A DNA stretch of 64,000 bases, taken from assembly GCF_011089875.1 (NCBI RefSeq), contig NZ_JAANAS010000033.1:1-64000 (forward strand). The letters are read 5' to 3'. This DNA comes from Psychroflexus maritimus (GTDB lineage Bacteria > Bacteroidota > Bacteroidia > Flavobacteriales > Flavobacteriaceae). The number at the start of each line of letters is the position of its first letter. Position 1 is the stretch's first letter. Below the pieces are notes generated by a model, which was not told the origin of the DNA, searched no databases, and saw nothing but the letters and a program-made list of their open reading frames with translations. Shown here piece by piece: positions 1-33,705 of this stretch. Position numbers and translations under genes: made by a program.

Positions 1-175
1 CACGATAGCTAAGGCTATCCTTCAAAAAATTGCCTTGTAACTGAATATCCTTATTGATTTTGACTTTGTGATTATAATCGAACTCAGGTTATTAAACTCA
101 GTTCACTTAATCTAACTTTAATTTACGCTAGGTTTATGTTTTACTAAAACCAATTTACTGAAAGAATTGTACCCC
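1..175. other. intergenic edge, no gene seen
   Basis: No credible coding region. The first bases hold a small hairpin (GATAGC-taag-GCTATC, 4-19). Around 69-95 lies a copy of a short motif with core TCGAACTCAGG, which recurs near 8610, 16972 and, on the other strand, 46428. Confidence 0.5.
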
Positions 176-26648: not shown

Positions 26649-28721
26649 ATGAAATCAAATTGGAAAAAAGTTGGTTTATGTATAGCTGGGCTTAGTTTTT
26701 TAGCTAGTTGTGAGCAAACCAACGAAAAAAAAGACCAAGATTTAGCAGAAAAAGCTAATTCAGGTATTGAAACTCAGTATATGGATATGAATGTGAGTCC
26801 GAAGGAAGACTTTTTTAGGTATGTTAACGGAACTTGGTTAAATGATACTGAAATCCCTGATGACAGAACTTCATGGGGAGGATTTCAGATTTTACGCCAA
26901 GAAACTGATAAAAATGTATTACAACTTTTAGAAGAGGGTAGAAAAAATCAAGATTTTAAGGAAGGTAGTGATCAAGCTAAAGCCATTTTTCTTTTTGATG
27001 CAATCATGGATACTGAAGCAAGAAATCAAGCTGGTTTAGCACCTTTAATGCCGCTTATGAAAAAAATTGAAGCACTTTCAAGTGTAGAAGATTTACAAAA
27101 CTTGAAAGGGAAGTATCCTTCTCAACTTTCTACTCCCTTTTTTAGTATTTCAGCCTATGCAGACCCAGAAGACAGCAACATGAACGTAGCTTATTTAGGA
27201 ACAGGAAGTCTTGGCTTGCCAGAGCGCGATTACTACACCAACGAAGATGAAGAGTCTGAAGAAATTAGACAAAAATACGTTAAGCATGTATCTAAAATGT
27301 TACAGTTTTTAGGCGATTCTGAAGCAGAAGCTCAAGATCAAGCTGAAAAGATTTTAGCTATGGAAACAAAATTAGCCGCACCACGTTTATCAAAAGTAGA
27401 ACGAAGAGATTTTAACAATTTTAATAATCGTTTTCAAATTGATGAAGTAAAAGAGTTTACTCCATCAATAGATTGGGTGAAACATGCGCAGGATTTAGGT
27501 ATAGAAGATCAATTAGATGTGGTTTTAGTGATGGAACCTAACTATATGAAAGAATTAGAAAAGTTTTTTCAAGAAACTCCTATAGAAGATATCAAAAGTT
27601 TATTGAGATGGGCTAATTTACGTTCTGCAGCATCTCAATTGACTACTGAATTAGATCGAGCTAATTGGGAGTTCTACAGCAAAGAACTAAGCGGTGCTCA
27701 AGAACAGTTGCCATTAGATGAAAGAGCGCTATCTGTAGTTAATGGAAGTATTGGTGAAGCGGTAGGAAAAATTTATGTAGAAAAGATGTTTCCACCGGAA
27801 GCTAAAGCAGATGCAGAACAAATGATTGATAATGTGATTTTAGCTTTTCAACAGCGTATTGAAAATTTAGAATGGATGACGGAAGATACCAAAGAAAAAG
27901 CTATTGAAAAACTAGATAAATTTACCGTTAAAGTAGGTTATCCAGACGAATTTAAAGACTACAGCGATTTACAAGTGAATGCCAATCAATCTTATTTTAA
28001 AAACATGCAAGCTGTAAGTGCTTGGAATTACCAAGACAGTTTAGATGAAATTGGAGAGCCCGTAGATAAAAGCAAGTGGGGAATGTCACCACAAACTGTG
28101 AATGCTTATTTTAACCCAATGATGAATGAAATTGTTTTTCCTGCAGCTATTTTACAACCGCCTTTTTACAATTATGAAGCAGATGCTGCAGTTAATTACG
28201 GAGGTATTGGAGCAGTTATAGGCCACGAAATTTCTCATGCTTTTGATGACTCTGGCGCCCGATTTGATGCTGATGGAAACTTAAAAAATTGGTGGACCGA
28301 TGAGGATTTAGAAAACTTTACCGCTCGAGGTGAAAAGCTTGCTGACATGTATTCTGCGATTGAAGTAACGGAAGGTCATTTTATTGATGGTAAATTTACC
28401 TTAGGTGAAAATATTGGTGATTTAGGAGGAGTGCTTGGAGCTTATGACGGACTGATGTTACATTTTGAAACGAATGAAAAACCAGGAAATATTGATGGCT
28501 TTACTCCAGAGCAACGTTTCTTCATGTCTTGGGCTACAGTTTGGCGTACAAAAATTAGAGAAGAAGCCTTAAAAACACAGGTTAAAACAGACCCTCATTC
28601 GCCAGGTGAATACAGGGCTTATGTGCCTTTACAAAATATTGATGCTTTTTATGAAGCTTTTGATATTGTAGAAGGAGATCCTATGTACCTAGCTCCGGAA
28701 AATCGCGTGAGAATTTGGTAA
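26649..28721 (+). CDS. M13 family metallopeptidase (PepO/neprilysin type)
   Basis: A zinc endopeptidase of 690 residues anchored as a lipoprotein (GLSFLASCEQ, lipobox Cys21). The M13 N-terminal domain (about 40-430) has VSPKEDFFRYVNGTWL. The catalytic domain follows: NAYFNPMMNEIVFPAAIL, the zinc motif VIGHEISHAFDDSGA near 535, and GENIGDLGG with the third ligand Glu. It ends in the short ENRVRIW form, where animal relatives have a CxxW. It probably cuts peptides in the periplasm or at the surface. A near-consensus -7 box, TACCTTAG, lies at 26620-26627. A strong terminator follows. Confidence 0.95.
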   Translation: MKSNWKKVGLCIAGLSFLASCEQTNEKKDQDLAEKANSGIETQYMDMNVSPKEDFFRYVNGTWLNDTEIPDDRTSWGGFQILRQETDKNVLQLLEEGRKNQDFKEGSDQAKAIFLFDAIMDTEARNQAGLAPLMPLMKKIEALSSVEDLQNLKGKYPSQLSTPFFSISAYADPEDSNMNVAYLGTGSLGLPERDYYTNEDEESEEIRQKYVKHVSKMLQFLGDSEAEAQDQAEKILAMETKLAAPRLSKVERRDFNNFNNRFQIDEVKEFTPSIDWVKHAQDLGIEDQLDVVLVMEPNYMKELEKFFQETPIEDIKSLLRWANLRSAASQLTTELDRANWEFYSKELSGAQEQLPLDERALSVVNGSIGEAVGKIYVEKMFPPEAKADAEQMIDNVILAFQQRIENLEWMTEDTKEKAIEKLDKFTVKVGYPDEFKDYSDLQVNANQSYFKNMQAVSAWNYQDSLDEIGEPVDKSKWGMSPQTVNAYFNPMMNEIVFPAAILQPPFYNYEADAAVNYGGIGAVIGHEISHAFDDSGARFDADGNLKNWWTDEDLENFTARGEKLADMYSAIEVTEGHFIDGKFTLGENIGDLGGVLGAYDGLMLHFETNEKPGNIDGFTPEQRFFMSWATVWRTKIREEALKTQVKTDPHSPGEYRAYVPLQNIDAFYEAFDIVEGDPMYLAPENRVRIW

Positions 28722-28740
28722 GCTTAAGTTAAAAGCAAAA

Positions 28741-28765
28741 AAGCCGCCTTTATAAAAGGCGGCTT
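28741..28765. terminator. terminator after the M13 peptidase gene
   Basis: AAGCCGCCTTT (28741-28751), loop ATA, AAAGGCGGCTT (28755-28765), with an A-tract before and T7 after. It can act in both directions, and the minus-strand enoyl-CoA hydratase gene also ends towards it. Confidence 0.9.
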
Positions 28766-28834
28766 TTTTGTTATTTTTAATCAGTTAGCTAAGCCTTGTT
28801 TTCAACCTCATTTTGCAAACTTAAATTGGTATAA

Positions 28835-28993
28835 TACCAATTTTACTATTAAATGTCGTTAAGAGAACGAAATTGCTTTTTTCATATATAACGCTGTGAA
28901 TAATTTGCATAGCAGGGTTACGGAAATTGTGAACAAGGAAATATATGGGAAAATGAATGAGCTAAATAGCGTCATTTGATGGTTAAATTGGTA
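28835..28993 (+). mobile_element. MITE-like element, copy A (~160 bp)
   Basis: Non-coding. The ends form imperfect terminal inverted repeats of about 26 bp: TACCAATTTTACTATTAAAT on the left, and the right end reverse-complements to TACCAATTTAACCATCAAAT. A diverged copy in the opposite orientation lies at 32113-32277. The 14-mer TTAAATTGGTATAA occurs on both sides (28821-28834 and 28983-28996). No transposase is encoded. Confidence 0.65.
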
Positions 28994-28998
28994 TAAGC

Positions 28999-29772
28999 TT
29001 AGAAGTTTGCTTTTCGCTTGTTTAAAAAGGCTTCCGTACCTTCTTTGAAATCATTGGTTCCAAAAGCTTCACCAAAAGCGGCTATTTCTGTTTTAAATCC
29101 ATCTACTCCATCTTTATAGTTATTATTTATGGCTTTAATAGCAGCTTCAATAGCTTTCATTGAGTTATTCATTATTTTACCCGCTAATTTTTCAGCCACA
29201 TCAATTAATTCATCTAATTGAACAACCTGATTCACTAAGCCATAATCTAAAGCTTTTTGAGCTGTAATCATTTCGGCAGTCATGATCATTTGCATAGCTC
29301 TACCTTTCCCAATTAACTGGGGAAGTCTCTGTGTGCCACCGTAGCCAGGAATTACCCCCAAAGAGGTTTCAGGAAGGCCTAGTTTTGCGTTTTCACTAGC
29401 AATTCTAAAATGAGCAGCCATAGCTAATTCTAACCCACCCCCAAGTGCAAAGCCATTAACTGCAGCTATTATGGGCTTTGGAAAGTTTGCTAAATAGTCA
29501 AAAACCAAGGTTTGCCCTTTTGCTGCTAAATCTTTTCCTTCCTCAACACTATAATTAGCGAATTCAGCTATATCTGCACCTGCCACAAAAGCTTTTTCAC
29601 CGGTTCCTGTTAAGATGATTACTTTAACTTCATCATCATCTTTTAAACCTTTAAAAGCTTCATGTATTTCTTGAAGAGTAGCTCTGTTTAAAGCATTGAG
29701 TTTTTTAGGTCGGTTGATAAAAACTTTGGCTATTTGATTTGATTTTTCAACATGTAAATTTTCGTAATTCAT
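28999..29772 (-). CDS. enoyl-CoA hydratase/isomerase family protein
   Basis: A crotonase-fold enzyme of 257 residues from the ATG at 29772, most likely adding water to 2-enoyl-CoA in fatty-acid or amino-acid breakdown. The oxyanion-hole motif AFVAGADIAEF is near residue 65. Both catalytic glutamates are present, in GGGLELAMAAH (near 110) and GLPETSLGVIPG (near 133). The frame extends to 29802, into the kinase gene, but MNYENLHVEK is the natural start, 4 nt after the kinase stop. It is the last gene of a hemJ-kinase-crotonase run. The true substrate cannot be told from the sequence. Confidence 0.9.
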   Translation of the reverse strand: MNYENLHVEKSNQIAKVFINRPKKLNALNRATLQEIHEAFKGLKDDDEVKVIILTGTGEKAFVAGADIAEFANYSVEEGKDLAAKGQTLVFDYLANFPKPIIAAVNGFALGGGLELAMAAHFRIASENAKLGLPETSLGVIPGYGGTQRLPQLIGKGRAMQMIMTAEMITAQKALDYGLVNQVVQLDELIDVAEKLAGKIMNNSMKAIEAAIKAINNNYKDGVDGFKTEIAAFGEAFGTNDFKEGTEAFLNKRKANF

Positions 29773-29776
29773 TGTT

Positions 29777-31228
29777 TTAATTTTTTGGTATTTCAATAAC
29801 AAAGGTAGTTCCTTTATTTACTTTTGATTTGAGCTTTATGTTTCCTTTAAAGTTTTCAACAATATTTTTCACCATACCTAAACCTAGTCCCATGCCACTT
29901 GTTTTGGTGGTAAATTTGGGTTCAAAAATACGCTTTTGTGTTTCTTCATCAATACCCACACCATTATCTGAAACACTTATTTTAACGCGGGTTTTTGTTG
30001 CACTTACTTCTACAATTATAAATGGATTTTCTTTGTTTTCGGTAGCTTGTTGGGCGTTTTTAACTAAGTTGGTAATCACTCGAATTAATTGAGCTCGGTC
30101 AAATTTAGCATAAATATCTTCTTTGTCTGTATAGACATGAAAATGAGGGCCTTTAAAAATATCGCAGGCTAATTGTATAGTTTTAGTAATATTTAGGTAT
30201 TCACTTTTTTGTGAAGGCATTTTAGCAAAATTAGAAAAAGCTTCTGCAATTGCCGTTAAGGTATCTATTTGTTGGATTAAAGTTTGAGAAAAGTCTTTTA
30301 CATCGGCCTGTTTTTTGATATTTCCTAAATTAAAATTTCGTTCAAAACTCTGTACTGTTAATCGCATGGGAGTAAGCGGATTTTTTATTTCGTGAGCTAC
30401 CTGTCTTGCCATTTGCCGCCAGGCCTCCTCGCGTTCAGACTGAGCTAGTTTTTTACTGCTTTCTTCTAGTTCAACCATTGCTTTGTTATAGGCATTAATT
30501 AGTGGTTTAAGTTCGTGAACAGCATTTTGAACCGACAGCTGTGTGTTGTTTTCAGTGAGTTTGGTTTCGCTTATTTGCTCTCCAATTTTATTAATGGATT
30601 TGGTAATTAGTTTAGATAAAAAATAAGCTAAGAGTACTGCTCCTAAAATCATTAATAGATACACTTGAGATAAGATGACAAAAAAATCTCTCAATTCTTG
30701 ATCCATATAGCCGTCATCCTCTATATAAGGCAGATTAAGAATAGCAATGGGCTTAAAAAATGGATTCGTAATATAGGTGTATGAAGATTGATAGCGTTGG
30801 TCTTCAAACTTAAAATCTTCAACGTGTTTTTTGTTTGAGGAATTTTCTAATTTTTGAATAATGCGCTGAGGAACTTCTTGCTCTAAAGAGTCAGAATAAA
30901 AGGAAGCATAAGAAGAAATCAATAAATTGCCTTCTAAGTCAAAGATGTTAATTTCTTCACTATGTATTTCTTGAATTTCATAGATTTTTTCTTTAAATAT
31001 TAAAGGGATATAATTGGTTTCTAAAGGGTATGTAGTGGTTCGAAAAACATAATTTATATTGGAATTGATTGCTTTTTGTTTGCGCTCTAGCTTATCTCTG
31101 TGAAGGTCTTTTGCTTCCTCTTTATACTGATAAATAGTAACTCCAGCAATTAATATAGAAGCAATTAGCACTAAGCTTATAGTAGATACAAATATTTTGC
31201 TAGAAAGAGAATTGGAACCCCAAATCAT
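29777..31228 (-). CDS. membrane sensor histidine kinase, NtrY-like
   Basis: A kinase of 483 residues. Two transmembrane helices (about 10-32 and 182-205) enclose a periplasmic sensor domain of about 150 residues. A HAMP-like linker leads to the DHp helix, with phospho-His in QVAHEIKNPLTPMRL near 285. The ATPase domain has LVKNAQQAT (N box), SDNGVGID (G1) and GMGLGLGMVKN (G2). The proline after HEIKNPLTP and the general pattern are those of NtrY-type kinases. No response regulator gene is next to it, so its partner must be elsewhere. It lies 35 nt after hemJ and 4 nt before the hydratase gene. Confidence 0.92.
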   Translation of the reverse strand: MIWGSNSLSSKIFVSTISLVLIASILIAGVTIYQYKEEAKDLHRDKLERKQKAINSNINYVFRTTTYPLETNYIPLIFKEKIYEIQEIHSEEINIFDLEGNLLISSYASFYSDSLEQEVPQRIIQKLENSSNKKHVEDFKFEDQRYQSSYTYITNPFFKPIAILNLPYIEDDGYMDQELRDFFVILSQVYLLMILGAVLLAYFLSKLITKSINKIGEQISETKLTENNTQLSVQNAVHELKPLINAYNKAMVELEESSKKLAQSEREEAWRQMARQVAHEIKNPLTPMRLTVQSFERNFNLGNIKKQADVKDFSQTLIQQIDTLTAIAEAFSNFAKMPSQKSEYLNITKTIQLACDIFKGPHFHVYTDKEDIYAKFDRAQLIRVITNLVKNAQQATENKENPFIIVEVSATKTRVKISVSDNGVGIDEETQKRIFEPKFTTKTSGMGLGLGMVKNIVENFKGNIKLKSKVNKGTTFVIEIPKN

Positions 31229-31263
31229 AGGTAAGTGTTTATTGTTTAAATGTAGTCTATTTT

Positions 31264-31797
31264 TTAATTTTTTCTTACTCGTTTATAAAGCTTTATGCCT
31301 AGCATTAAAACCAAGGCTAGACCTATTAGCCCAAATGTTCCATACACCCAATTTACAGCCGATTTTGTAATTACTAGAAACACCACAGCAAAAAGGATAA
31401 GCGTGGCACCTTCATTCCAAATACGCATTTGATTGGAAGTCCATTTAATTTCATCGCGCTGAAATTGTTTGTAAATTTGATGATTTTTTAAATGGTATAA
31501 AATCAAAACCACCACAAAACCAAGTTTAATATGCATCCAAGGTGCTTGTAGCCAACCTGGGTTCAAGATGAGCAACCAAATGGCAAAAAAAGTCGCCAAC
31601 ACAGCTGAAGGCCAAGTAATAATAAACCATAACCGGTTAGTCATAAGCTTGAGTTGTTCAACAATTGGTGTGGCTTGTTCTTTTGGCTTATTTAAAGCCT
31701 CAATTTGATAAATAAATAAGCGTGGAATATAAAACAATCCTGCAAACCAAGTGATGACAAAGATGAGGTGTAATGATTTAATGTACAAGTAGCTCAT
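31264..31797 (-). CDS. hemJ: HemJ-type protoporphyrinogen oxidase
   Basis: An inner-membrane enzyme of the UPF0093/CopD-like family (177 residues) that oxidises protoporphyrinogen IX in haem synthesis. The key residues are present: His10 in SLHLIFVITWFAGLFYIPRL, and the Lys of HIKLGFVVVLILYH near 90. About four transmembrane helices are visible. It is the first gene of a minus-strand run with the histidine kinase and hydratase genes. The region upstream carries two GGGGTATATTT copies and inverted repeats that could be regulatory. Confidence 0.9.
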   Translation of the reverse strand: MSYLYIKSLHLIFVITWFAGLFYIPRLFIYQIEALNKPKEQATPIVEQLKLMTNRLWFIITWPSAVLATFFAIWLLILNPGWLQAPWMHIKLGFVVVLILYHLKNHQIYKQFQRDEIKWTSNQMRIWNEGATLILFAVVFLVITKSAVNWVYGTFGLIGLALVLMLGIKLYKRVRKN

Positions 31798-31856
31798 GCT
31801 TATTAATTTTATTCAAAAGTAGTACATTTTTAATTAGATTTTCTAACGAAAATCAA

Positions 31857-31882
31857 AAAAGCCTAACTCAAGTTAGGCTTTT
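31857..31882. terminator. terminator hairpin in the radA-hemJ gap
   Basis: AAAAGCCTAACT and AGTTAGGCTTTT are perfectly complementary. On the minus strand the U-run continues over 31855-31860. It probably ends the radA operon transcript. Confidence 0.75.
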
Positions 31883-31892
31883 AAGAATTAAT

Positions 31893-32001
31893 GCAAGTGA
31901 AATAAATATACCCCTATAAAAACTCACTTGCTATTTAAATAAGAAGATGATTCAAATATATGGCGAAGTATTTAAGAAAAATATACCCCTTAATGGGTAT
32001 A
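31893..32001. promoter_or_regulatory. paired motifs and dyads upstream of hemJ
   Basis: GCAAGTGA (31893-31900) and TCACTTGC (31924-31931) form an inverted repeat enclosing TATACCCC. TATACCC (31982-31988) and GGGTATA (31995-32001) form another. The shared AATATACCCC occurs twice, about 75 bp apart. The arrangement looks like operator sites, but the regulator is unknown. Confidence 0.35.
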
Positions 32002-32112
32002 AAATGTTAAAATTTTGAAATTGATGAATAGATTAAGTAGCAGTAAATCAACTTAAATGGCTTGATTCTTAAAAAAAACTTATTTTATTTTTATTGCTAT
32101 ATTCTGTTTTTA

Positions 32113-32277
32113 TACAATTTTCACCATTAAATGTGGCTATTTTGCTCATTCATTTTCTATCGGTATTTCTTTGCTCCTGATTTCCATCCCTTACTTATCA
32201 GATGCAAATAAACCAAAGCATCATCTAGGAAAAAAGCAATTTCGCTTTATTAAATGCATATAGTAATTAAACGGGTA
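32113..32277 (-). mobile_element. MITE-like element, copy B (~165 bp)
   Basis: The reverse complement aligns with copy A along its whole length: shared blocks include GAAATTGCTTTTTT, AAAATGAATGAGC and AAATAGC. The first 42 positions from TACC align without a gap, about 30 of 42 identical. The rest of the 540-bp gap between radA and hemJ holds no gene. Confidence 0.6.
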
Positions 32278-32337
32278 ATTAGTCAGTTCATAAATTAAGG
32301 TTTAACTTACGAAATGCTTTTGTGACAGTTACCAAAC

Positions 32338-33705
32338 TTATGAAATTATAAAATCAACTACATCTTCAATTTTTCCTACTTTTTTAATTTGAATCTTGTA
32401 GTCTTTTTTTGGTAATTTTGATTCTTTGCTAATAATGATTACTGCAAAACCAAGTTTTTCAGCCTCTATGATTCGTTGTTCAACTTTACTAACTGGTCTA
32501 ATTTCGCCAGCTAGACCTATCTCAGCGGCAAAGCAAATCCTATTGGGAATAGGTTCATCTTCATTAGACGATAAAATAGCAGCAACAACTCCTAAATCGA
32601 TGGCAGGATCGTCAACACTAATACCTCCTGTAATGTTTAAAAAAACATCTTTTGCTCCTAGTTTAAAACCTGCTCTTTTTTCTAATACAGCGAGCAGCAT
32701 ATTTAATCTTTTAGCATTGTAACCTGTTGCTGAACGTTGCGGTGTTCCATAGACGGCAGAGCTTACTAAAGCCTGAATCTCAATCATTAAAGGGCGTATT
32801 CCTTCTAGGGTTGCCGCAATGGCTGTTCCGCTTAAATGTTCACTGTGGTTAGAAATGAGGATTTCGGAAGGGTTGCTTACTTCGCGCAGACCTGTTGAAA
32901 GCATTTCATAGATTCCTAATTCGTGGGTAGATCCAAATCTGTTTTTATGAGCTCTCAAAATTCTATAAACGTGATTTCTATCGCCTTCAAACTGCAAAAC
33001 TGTATCTACCATGTGCTCTAAGACTTTGGGTCCAGCAATGCTTCCTTCTTTATTTATATGACCAATTATAAGAACCGGTACATTTTTAGTCTTTGCAAAT
33101 TGAATGAGTTCTGAAGTACATTCTCTAATTTGAGAAACACTGCCTGCAGAGCTTTCAACTTGTGGGGTATGTAAGGTTTGAATGGAGTCTATGACAAGGA
33201 TTTCTGGATCTAATTCTTTTATTTGTTGAAAGATATTTTGAGTTTTAGTTTCAGAAAGGATGAAGCAATTAGCTTCTTGTTTGGTAATTCTTTCGGCCCT
33301 CATTTTTATTTGCTGCAGGCTTTCTTCTCCAGAAACATATAAGGTTTTGTAGGGTAATTTTAGCGCAATTTGTAAAAGTAGTGTACTTTTTCCAATGCCT
33401 GGTTCGCCGCCCAATAAGGTTAGTGACCCAGGCACAATTCCGCCTCCAAGAACGCGGTTAAATTCTTGGTCTGAAGTGCGAAGTCTTACTTCTTTAGTGA
33501 GTTCAATTTCTTGAAGTCGTTGAGGTTTTGCAATTCTTTTACTGCTTGTACTTATTTCTTTGTTCCAGGTGTGCTTAGTACTTTCTTTTTCAAGAATTTC
33601 TTCTACAAGTGTATTCCATTCTTTACAAGAATTGCATTGACCTTGCCAGCGCGGATGTTGAGCGCCACAATTTTGACAGAAAAAAGCGGTTTTTGTTTTT
33701 GCCAT
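32338..33705 (-). CDS. radA: DNA repair protein RadA
   Basis: A RecA-like branch-migration ATPase that processes recombination intermediates (455 residues). The N-terminal zinc finger is visible as FFCQNCGAQHPRWQGQC with a further C. Walker A is GGEPGIGKSTLLLQ near 95, the RadA-specific KNRFGSTHELGIYEM motif is near 250, and the Lon-like C-terminal domain contains DLGVVAAILSS. An in-frame TTG begins at 33711, but the ATG at 33705 gives the standard MAKTKTAFFC start, 2 nt after the previous stop. It is the last gene of the panC-panD operon. Confidence 0.97.
   Translation of the reverse strand: MAKTKTAFFCQNCGAQHPRWQGQCNSCKEWNTLVEEILEKESTKHTWNKEISTSSKRIAKPQRLQEIELTKEVRLRTSDQEFNRVLGGGIVPGSLTLLGGEPGIGKSTLLLQIALKLPYKTLYVSGEESLQQIKMRAERITKQEANCFILSETKTQNIFQQIKELDPEILVIDSIQTLHTPQVESSAGSVSQIRECTSELIQFAKTKNVPVLIIGHINKEGSIAGPKVLEHMVDTVLQFEGDRNHVYRILRAHKNRFGSTHELGIYEMLSTGLREVSNPSEILISNHSEHLSGTAIAATLEGIRPLMIEIQALVSSAVYGTPQRSATGYNAKRLNMLLAVLEKRAGFKLGAKDVFLNITGGISVDDPAIDLGVVAAILSSNEDEPIPNRICFAAEIGLAGEIRPVSKVEQRIIEAEKLGFAVIIISKESKLPKKDYKIQIKKVGKIEDVVDFIIS

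Follow-up and report, generated by a model that had tools for sequence, protein, structure and literature searches.

A 159-bp MITE-like element in Psychroflexus and its hairpin-bearing relatives in Bacteroidota

Copy A, its surroundings and its family in Psychroflexus

The window analysed here, a stretch of 64,000 nucleotides from a Psychroflexus (Flavobacteriaceae) genome of 2.59 Mb in 126 contigs, carries between two genes a compact element referred to as copy A. It starts ~60 bp past a terminator-like hairpin that lies 3′ of one gene, which we take from its motifs to encode a peptidase-like protein, and it ends 5 bp short of the stop codon of an opposite-strand gene, presumably crotonase-like. 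The hairpin behind the peptidase-like gene is a strong one (window 28735-28772), and some other copies of the element likewise sit shortly past terminator-like hairpins. No entry of at least 60 aa in the window's list of open reading frames (ORFs) overlaps copy A, as anticipated from the lack of a long ORF in the original prediction. The features of the locus are as follows.

28821..28831, no strand: flank TTAAATTGGTA, mirroring the element end; possible older remnant or preferred target
28832..28834, no strand: left target-site duplication, TAA at copy A (TNA family-wide)
28835..28993, plus strand: mobile element copy A, TACC...GGTA, 159 bp, 161-type of the family; the plus strand bears the conserved fold
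28835..28861, plus strand: left terminal inverted repeat, imperfect, agreeing with the opposite end at 22 of 27 positions in an end-to-end comparison
28877..28889, plus strand: inner stem, left side TTTTTTCATATAT, covarying helix 4
28907..28923, plus strand: apical core hairpin GCATAGC-AGG-GTTACGG, common to relatives across Bacteroidota
28941..28953, plus strand: inner stem, right side ATATATGGGAAAA, covarying helix 4
28967..28993, minus strand: right terminal inverted repeat, imperfect, from the same end-to-end comparison
28994..28996, no strand: right target-site duplication, TAA at copy A
32110..32277, minus strand: copy B, an older, decayed full-length relative, 72% identity; AAT/TAA flanks without an intact duplication

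Copy A begins TACCAATTT and finishes AAATTGGTA (28835-28993). An element with imperfect inverted ends of ~26 bp had been proposed within these limits from the letters alone, and the two ends do agree at 22 of their first 27 positions; the ends are thus present as described, but their pairing carries through to the centre, making the whole element one long hairpin rather than a pair of short terminal repeats. The 14-mer TTAAATTGGTATAA, noted earlier at 28821 and 28983, indeed occurs at 28821-28834 and again at 28983-28996. Its right occurrence is composed of the last 11 bases of copy A plus the right TAA, and its left occurrence of an end-like flank plus the left TAA. That left flank is an exact mirror of the element end, and may be either the remnant of another copy or a preferred target. 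The homologue noted 3.3 kb away in the opposite orientation was recovered by the own-genome search as copy B (E 7e-17); its decay and missing duplication fit the older, partly decayed neighbour of the original prediction.

Copies are dispersed well beyond the window. A search with this stretch of the window returned 25 matches across the genome, and ten copies are full-length by comparison with a consensus (four on contig C82, two on C38, and one each on C36, C39, C22 and C32, the last being copy A), accompanied by decayed, deleted and end-only copies. The inverted ends of copy A are common to the other full copies. Two subtypes are distinguished by their apex, a 161-type with GCATAGCAGGGCTACGG, to which copy A is close, and a 166-type with GCATCCCGTACGTACGGGACGG, both lengths including one flanking base per end. 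In the genus, the consensus search matched 13 of 27 genomes, the own one counted. Genome G020 alone gave 20 match rows, some of which are one palindrome read on both strands. The copies in G010 and G026 are letter-identical, over the element and the flank shown, to Psychroflexus planctonicus and P. tropicus records.

Shortened forms are of two kinds. A few internally deleted minis of ~65 bp keep both ends, and end-only fragments exist in Psychroflexus genomes. Counted by eye, right-end-only copies outnumber left-end-only copies by ~17 to 4; fragments of ~46 bp retaining the right end alone start within three bases of one another in unrelated places (in the own genome, G000, at C104:44439, C60:93123 and C54:185; in G020 on C54 and C84 and at C8:41077; and in G017 on C169). 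This excess, with at least 10 fragments starting within three bases at the base of the inner stem, prompted consideration of a retro-type insertion, an idea that was dropped when a matching 3-bp repeat at the truncated side was found, by eye, in only 2 of ~10; deletions fit better.

Insertion footprint and the search for a mobilising enzyme

The clearest trace of movement is a short target duplication. Identical 3-bp flanks border eight of the ten full-length copies in the own genome (the misses being C82:3286 and C36:4288) and 20 of 28 distinct copies. In a set of 90 elements whose ends are of the TACC type, 58 have identical 3-mer flanks, every one of the form TNA (TAA 28, TTA 28, TGA 1, TCA 1); shuffling the partners 1000 times gave 28.4 on average and never more than 40. 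The same 90 elements have identical flanks of 1 bp in 2 cases, of 2 bp in 3 and of 4 to 7 bp in none. Insertions also fall between genes, with only 3 of 134 elements lying inside an ORF of at least 100 aa. Judged by these features of its sequence, namely its shortness, inverted ends, TNA duplication and dispersed copies, copy A is a MITE-like mobile element. The multi-copy MITE-like family with inverted ends and target duplication that had been predicted is thereby upheld: the genome holds 10 full copies rather than two copies only, and 3-bp duplications mark the ends of most of these as insertion boundaries. A preference for inserting beside element-like ends was also considered and set aside as too weak, such a flank being found at 5 of 90 elements versus 1.3% of random TNA sites; the copy at C38:252935 has an end-like flank as well, but falls outside the 90-element set owing to its core.

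Empty sites, which the original prediction had proposed to look for, were approached through element-free gene pairs. Element-free relatives were sought at four sites, two of which, C82:3286 and C39:36264, proved usable. At both, G014 has the same gene pair without the element, its intergenic DNA being too diverged to give the exact join, and at C39:36264 G020 carries a diverged palindrome finishing in AATTGGTATAA. No usable adjacent gene pair was found in relatives at the other two sites. For copy A itself there is no empty site in the relatives checked (G014, G020, G009, G018 and G026), where its neighbour genes are separately placed. Exact empty sites were not obtained at the sites covered.

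The mobilising enzyme was sought among two transposase types. Matches to Y1_Tnp occur in 24 of the 27 genus genomes, the own one included, and 20 such loci were examined; none contains the core or a facing pair of ends, the only resemblances being three weak BLAST matches of 18-24 bp and, at 10 of the 20, one or two isolated 8-bp end motifs. For PF01609 there are 11 match rows, spread over 6 of 7 genomes, and these 11 loci similarly have neither core nor facing ends, with isolated end motifs at 3. A Y1/RAYT partner and a PF01609 partner were both rejected on these grounds, and no full-length transposon with the same ends, which the original prediction had suggested looking for, is present among the 20 Y1 and 11 PF01609 loci. 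The predicted mobilisation in trans was, in these loci, not shown. Recurrent neighbours were also considered, by clustering 510 ORFs beside 80 motif loci: no neighbour protein is shared by more than 5 of the 80, and the widest clusters, spanning 5 and 3 loci, are from their first residues presumably sensor kinases and sigma factors. Gaps between contigs or other genomes may hide the mobiliser, or it may belong to a family beyond Y1 and PF01609. As a separate observation, the own genome has Y1 (RAYT-like) transposase genes that are split or interrupted by stops, at G000:C22:6976-7332, C22:87133 and C104:90754.

The fold, its strand and its spread beyond the genus

The plus strand of copy A, folded as RNA, reaches -48.7 kcal/mol, compared with a mean of -25.4 for shuffled sequences (z -7.06), and none of 200 shuffles equals it. 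An alignment of 21 of 35 full copies, from which near-identical copies, one rearranged copy and one short copy were omitted, yields 55 pairs with 94.3% of cells paired and, across genera, double-sided changes at 26 pairs. None of 500 shuffles reaches the observed value, and sliding the partner strand lowers pairing to 40.6-48.2%. The inner stem illustrates this covariation, TTTTTTCATATAT/ATATATGGGAAAA of copy A being replaced by TTTGGTAGCTAAG/CTTAGCTACCAAA in G204. The mismatches flanking the apical stem are retained in most alignment rows. A broader alignment of 36 diverse elements, chosen from 47 representatives after 11 that were chance-like, rearranged or subtype duplicates had been dropped by eye, gives 25 pairs, 92.7% paired and 21 of them changed on both sides, again with 0 of 500 shuffles and with slid partners pairing at 48.8-58.2%. 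No Rfam 15 family reaches its gathering score across window 28700-32400, and in 14 loci of relatives the only models to pass are tRNA and the S16 leader, both outside the elements. Nor was a description of the element met among titles and opening lines of abstracts in the open-access literature, the subscription literature lying outside the search.

The fold is strongly one-sided. Both strands were folded around the core at 119 of 130 motif sites, the remainder lacking a foldback or lying too close to the end of a contig. In 117 of the 119, a few of which may be chance sites, the GCATAGC strand has the greater stability, and outside the core it forms 611 G-U pairs against 155 on its complement. 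The asymmetry does not reside in the core itself, for with a neutral cap in its place, in a second and slightly larger set, the core strand is still the more stable in 147 of 150, and at rising non-redundancy in 99 of 101, 80 of 81 and 56 of 57; ungapped identity is under ~64% in the most strongly thinned of these sets. Chance core motifs in viral contigs provide the contrast, the core strand being favoured in 51 of 115; of at least 120 core-motif stretches there, a loose pairing cut retains 10, and by eye not one of the stretches resembles the element. A palindrome kept for its double-stranded DNA should prefer no strand, and a single-stranded molecule therefore seems to be under selection. 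These comparisons suggest that the molecule is most simply a transcribed RNA, since G-U pairs are stable in RNA. The arrangement of neighbouring genes contributes little: among 113 elements with genes on both sides, the left gene reads into the element in 67 and does not in 46, and relative to the core strand the gene pairs are codirectional in 38, opposed in 22, convergent in 29 and divergent in 24. This bias is weak, and routine read-through is not strongly supported by it.

Relatives extend far past Psychroflexus. With three candidates scored per genome, BLAST detects the element in 11 Flavobacteriaceae genomes out of 249, a count that includes the own one. A covariance model, with nine candidates scored per genome, matches 45 of 299 family genomes in 39 of 236 genera; a part of its weak hits may come from long palindromes of another kind, since strong palindromes score on both strands. 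Among 30 covariance loci that were read, distant ones combine different ends with an apex that is identical or similar, a constancy that is partly by construction as this apex was among the model's training data. The broader model, R2, built on the alignment of 36 diverse elements and run under strict filters with eight candidates scored per genome, matched 7 of 395 genomes of the phylum, Psychroflexus accounting for two. Scanning GTDB species genomes for TTTGCATAGC-N2-5-GCTACGGAAA returned at least 117 stretches; the 80 named matches listed comprise 75 in Bacteroidota and 5 in Chlorobiota MAGs, with none in another phylum. The 75 listed for Bacteroidota are 29 Saprospiraceae, 14 Lewinella or Neolewinella, 14 Bacteroidales (including Prolixibacteraceae and Draconibacterium), 15 Flavobacteriales, 2 unplaced Bacteroidetes and 1 Sphingobacterium, this last looking like a chance hit in coding DNA. 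No match was found in plasmids for four element types, or in phages for two.

What these relatives in Bacteroidota and Chlorobiota have in common is the apical hairpin GCATAGC-loop-GCTACGG, while their terminal repeats differ: GTAACGACG, GGGATGGG, GGAACGCG and GAACTC occur among the wider elements, as against TACCAATT in the family of copy A. Because the wider set was largely gathered by the core motif or the core-trained model, its core constancy is partly by construction. Length was analysed in 148 elements, reduced to 100 by thinning at 85% and to 90 with clear ends. A 3-bp repeat flanks 43 of these 90 (control mean 19.2, maximum 30 in 300 runs), leaving 47 without one, and its letters are TTA 20, TAA 16, AAT 3, ATT 2, TCA 1 and TCT 1, so that six of the 43 (AAT, ATT and TCT) are not TNA. 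All 43 are 158-162 bp long, a constancy partly built into a search range of 150-172 bp that favoured 160, and they bear 15 different six-base ends, with TACCAA in 21.

Explanations for the element and comparison with known repeats

The reading we prefer, with a probability of roughly 0.6, is that copy A is a 159-bp non-autonomous MITE-like transposon of a Bacteroidota-wide superfamily defined by its hairpin with a conserved apical core rather than by its terminal repeat, the folded RNA being maintained and a DDE-type transposase acting in trans. Copy A would have been inserted at a TNA target with duplication of 3 bp, through cutting and joining in trans by a putative DDE-type transposase with a 3-bp stagger. 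The element would be transcribed, by read-through or otherwise, and its folded RNA would be the object kept by selection, either since the mobilising machinery needs the fold or since a structured transcript segment makes insertions tolerable. Bacterial MITEs are usually seen as passive leftovers of insertion sequences (ISs), while here the ends vary and the strand-specific fold and apex stay; as far as these alignments can tell, the novelty relative to known MITEs is that a strand-specific hairpin is conserved across a phylum while the ends are exchanged. Given that fold and apex persist across the phylum as the ends change, a role of the fold in movement or in host tolerance is probable. A bolder generalisation, which we advance tentatively and consider somewhat doubtful, would make these elements a phylum-wide class of mobile structured RNAs of fixed length (~159 nt), in which the apical hairpin is constant, the ends can be exchanged, and mobility or persistence would be governed by a measured hairpin RNA rather than by terminal repeats alone. 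In practical terms the element offers a precise target for RNA-sequencing or pull-down, and gives a name to a repeat that lies between genes, and interrupts contigs, in many Bacteroidota genomes.

The conventional alternative is a deleted insertion sequence whose ends are seen by a DDE transposase and whose fold is nothing but the old IS arms, with no role. Terminal repeats, a 3-bp TNA duplication, the lack of an ORF, intergenic placement and ten similar copies are all as such an element should have them, as are the ~65-bp minis keeping both ends, expected if the ends alone matter. This reading nonetheless appears unlikely, given that the centre and the strand-specific G-U pairing are common to elements with unrelated ends, that length is similar across elements (a similarity partly built into the test), and that no parent IS is among the 20 Y1 and 11 PF01609 loci. 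The original interpretation as a MITE holds in that the family is mobile and multi-copy; as a decayed transposon with 26-bp ends it falls short of a strand-specific fold conserved across the phylum.

Quite improbable is a single-stranded DNA element, whose core strand would fold at replication and be moved by a hairpin-binding HUH transposase or an integrase, as in IS200/IS605 ends and attC sites. The strand-specific fold and the conserved mismatches beside the apical stem suit such an element, and Y1 matches are present in 24 of 27 genus genomes. HUH elements, however, are not known to leave a 3-bp TNA duplication; IS200/IS605-type elements are not known to duplicate their target, and have subterminal hairpins and a lagging-strand orientation. 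The elements described here do carry the duplication, and they are evenly oriented to replication, lying in the leading sense in 6 of 13, 6 of 8 and 3 of 8 cases in three genomes (15 of 29 overall), with origin and terminus estimated from sparse skew. These two properties make single-stranded DNA the less likely molecule and set the element apart from the IS200/IS605 type. The 20 Y1 loci, 10 of them with isolated 8-bp end motifs only, have no core or facing ends, and G014, 90% complete, has the element at five places (seven match rows) yet no Y1 match. Long imperfect DNA palindromes undergo quasi-palindrome correction, so that compensatory changes could in principle arise without selection as one arm is copied onto the other at replication, but this is highly improbable: correction would restore Watson-Crick pairs equally on both strands and would not leave the mismatches beside the apical stem, and the one-sided G-U excess speaks against it as the sole cause.

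Several known repeats resemble the preferred MITE-like superfamily in part. ERIC sequences, which duplicate TA at their target and for which we know of no transposase, are likewise short intergenic palindromic repeats of many genera. Correia/NEMIS elements are also short with inverted ends, and differ in host and, to our knowledge, in sequence and target and in having no phylum-wide core. The part of PMC10969869 available to us reports that ERIC insertion at gene 3′ ends affects transcript levels, and that Correia/NEMIS transcripts are cut by RNase III at the ends. ERIC belongs to another phylum and is set apart, by its description, from an element with a 3-bp TNA duplication, a strand-specific covarying fold and exchangeable ends. 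REPs with their RAYT or TIRYT partners are palindromic repeats of small size, for which movement in trans and action as RNA are both possible; the available part of the source gives them as 20-40 bp long, one end bearing a GTAG or CGTC tag (PMC3733652). Copy A differs from them in size and ends: it measures ~159 bp, its inverted ends are long and it is flanked by a 3-bp duplication. REPs lie next to a Y1 transposase, and the core and facing ends of copy A are absent from the 20 Y1 loci. Closest in host are BrickBuilt and MITE239 of Porphyromonas gingivalis and MITECca01 of Cardinium, non-coding elements of Bacteroidota with terminal inverted repeats, whose ends have been compared with IS elements, namely IS5-family ISPg and ISCca4 (PMC4596501, PMC9769881, as available in part). 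BrickBuilt has internal tandem repeats according to the portion of PMC4596501 at hand, and the ends given in the available portions of both papers are not TACCAATT, nor do these portions mention such a core (PMC4596501, PMC9769881).

A second palindromic family, repeat B, is present in the same genome. It is ~270 bp long with ends CCTGAGTTCGATTATAATCACAAAG, ends that resemble those of MITE239 and ISPg3 as given in the available part of PMC4596501. Its 48 match rows in the own genome include some that are one place on both strands; one copy is cut off at the start of the window (1-91), another lies at G000:C82:58040-58308, and several contigs begin or end within the repeat. At locus L385 (G000:C60:163022-164019) a PF01609 transposase match has a repeat-B end at a distance of ~300 bp, and an insertion sequence there may therefore mobilise repeat B; a 16-bp inverted pair surrounds this match.
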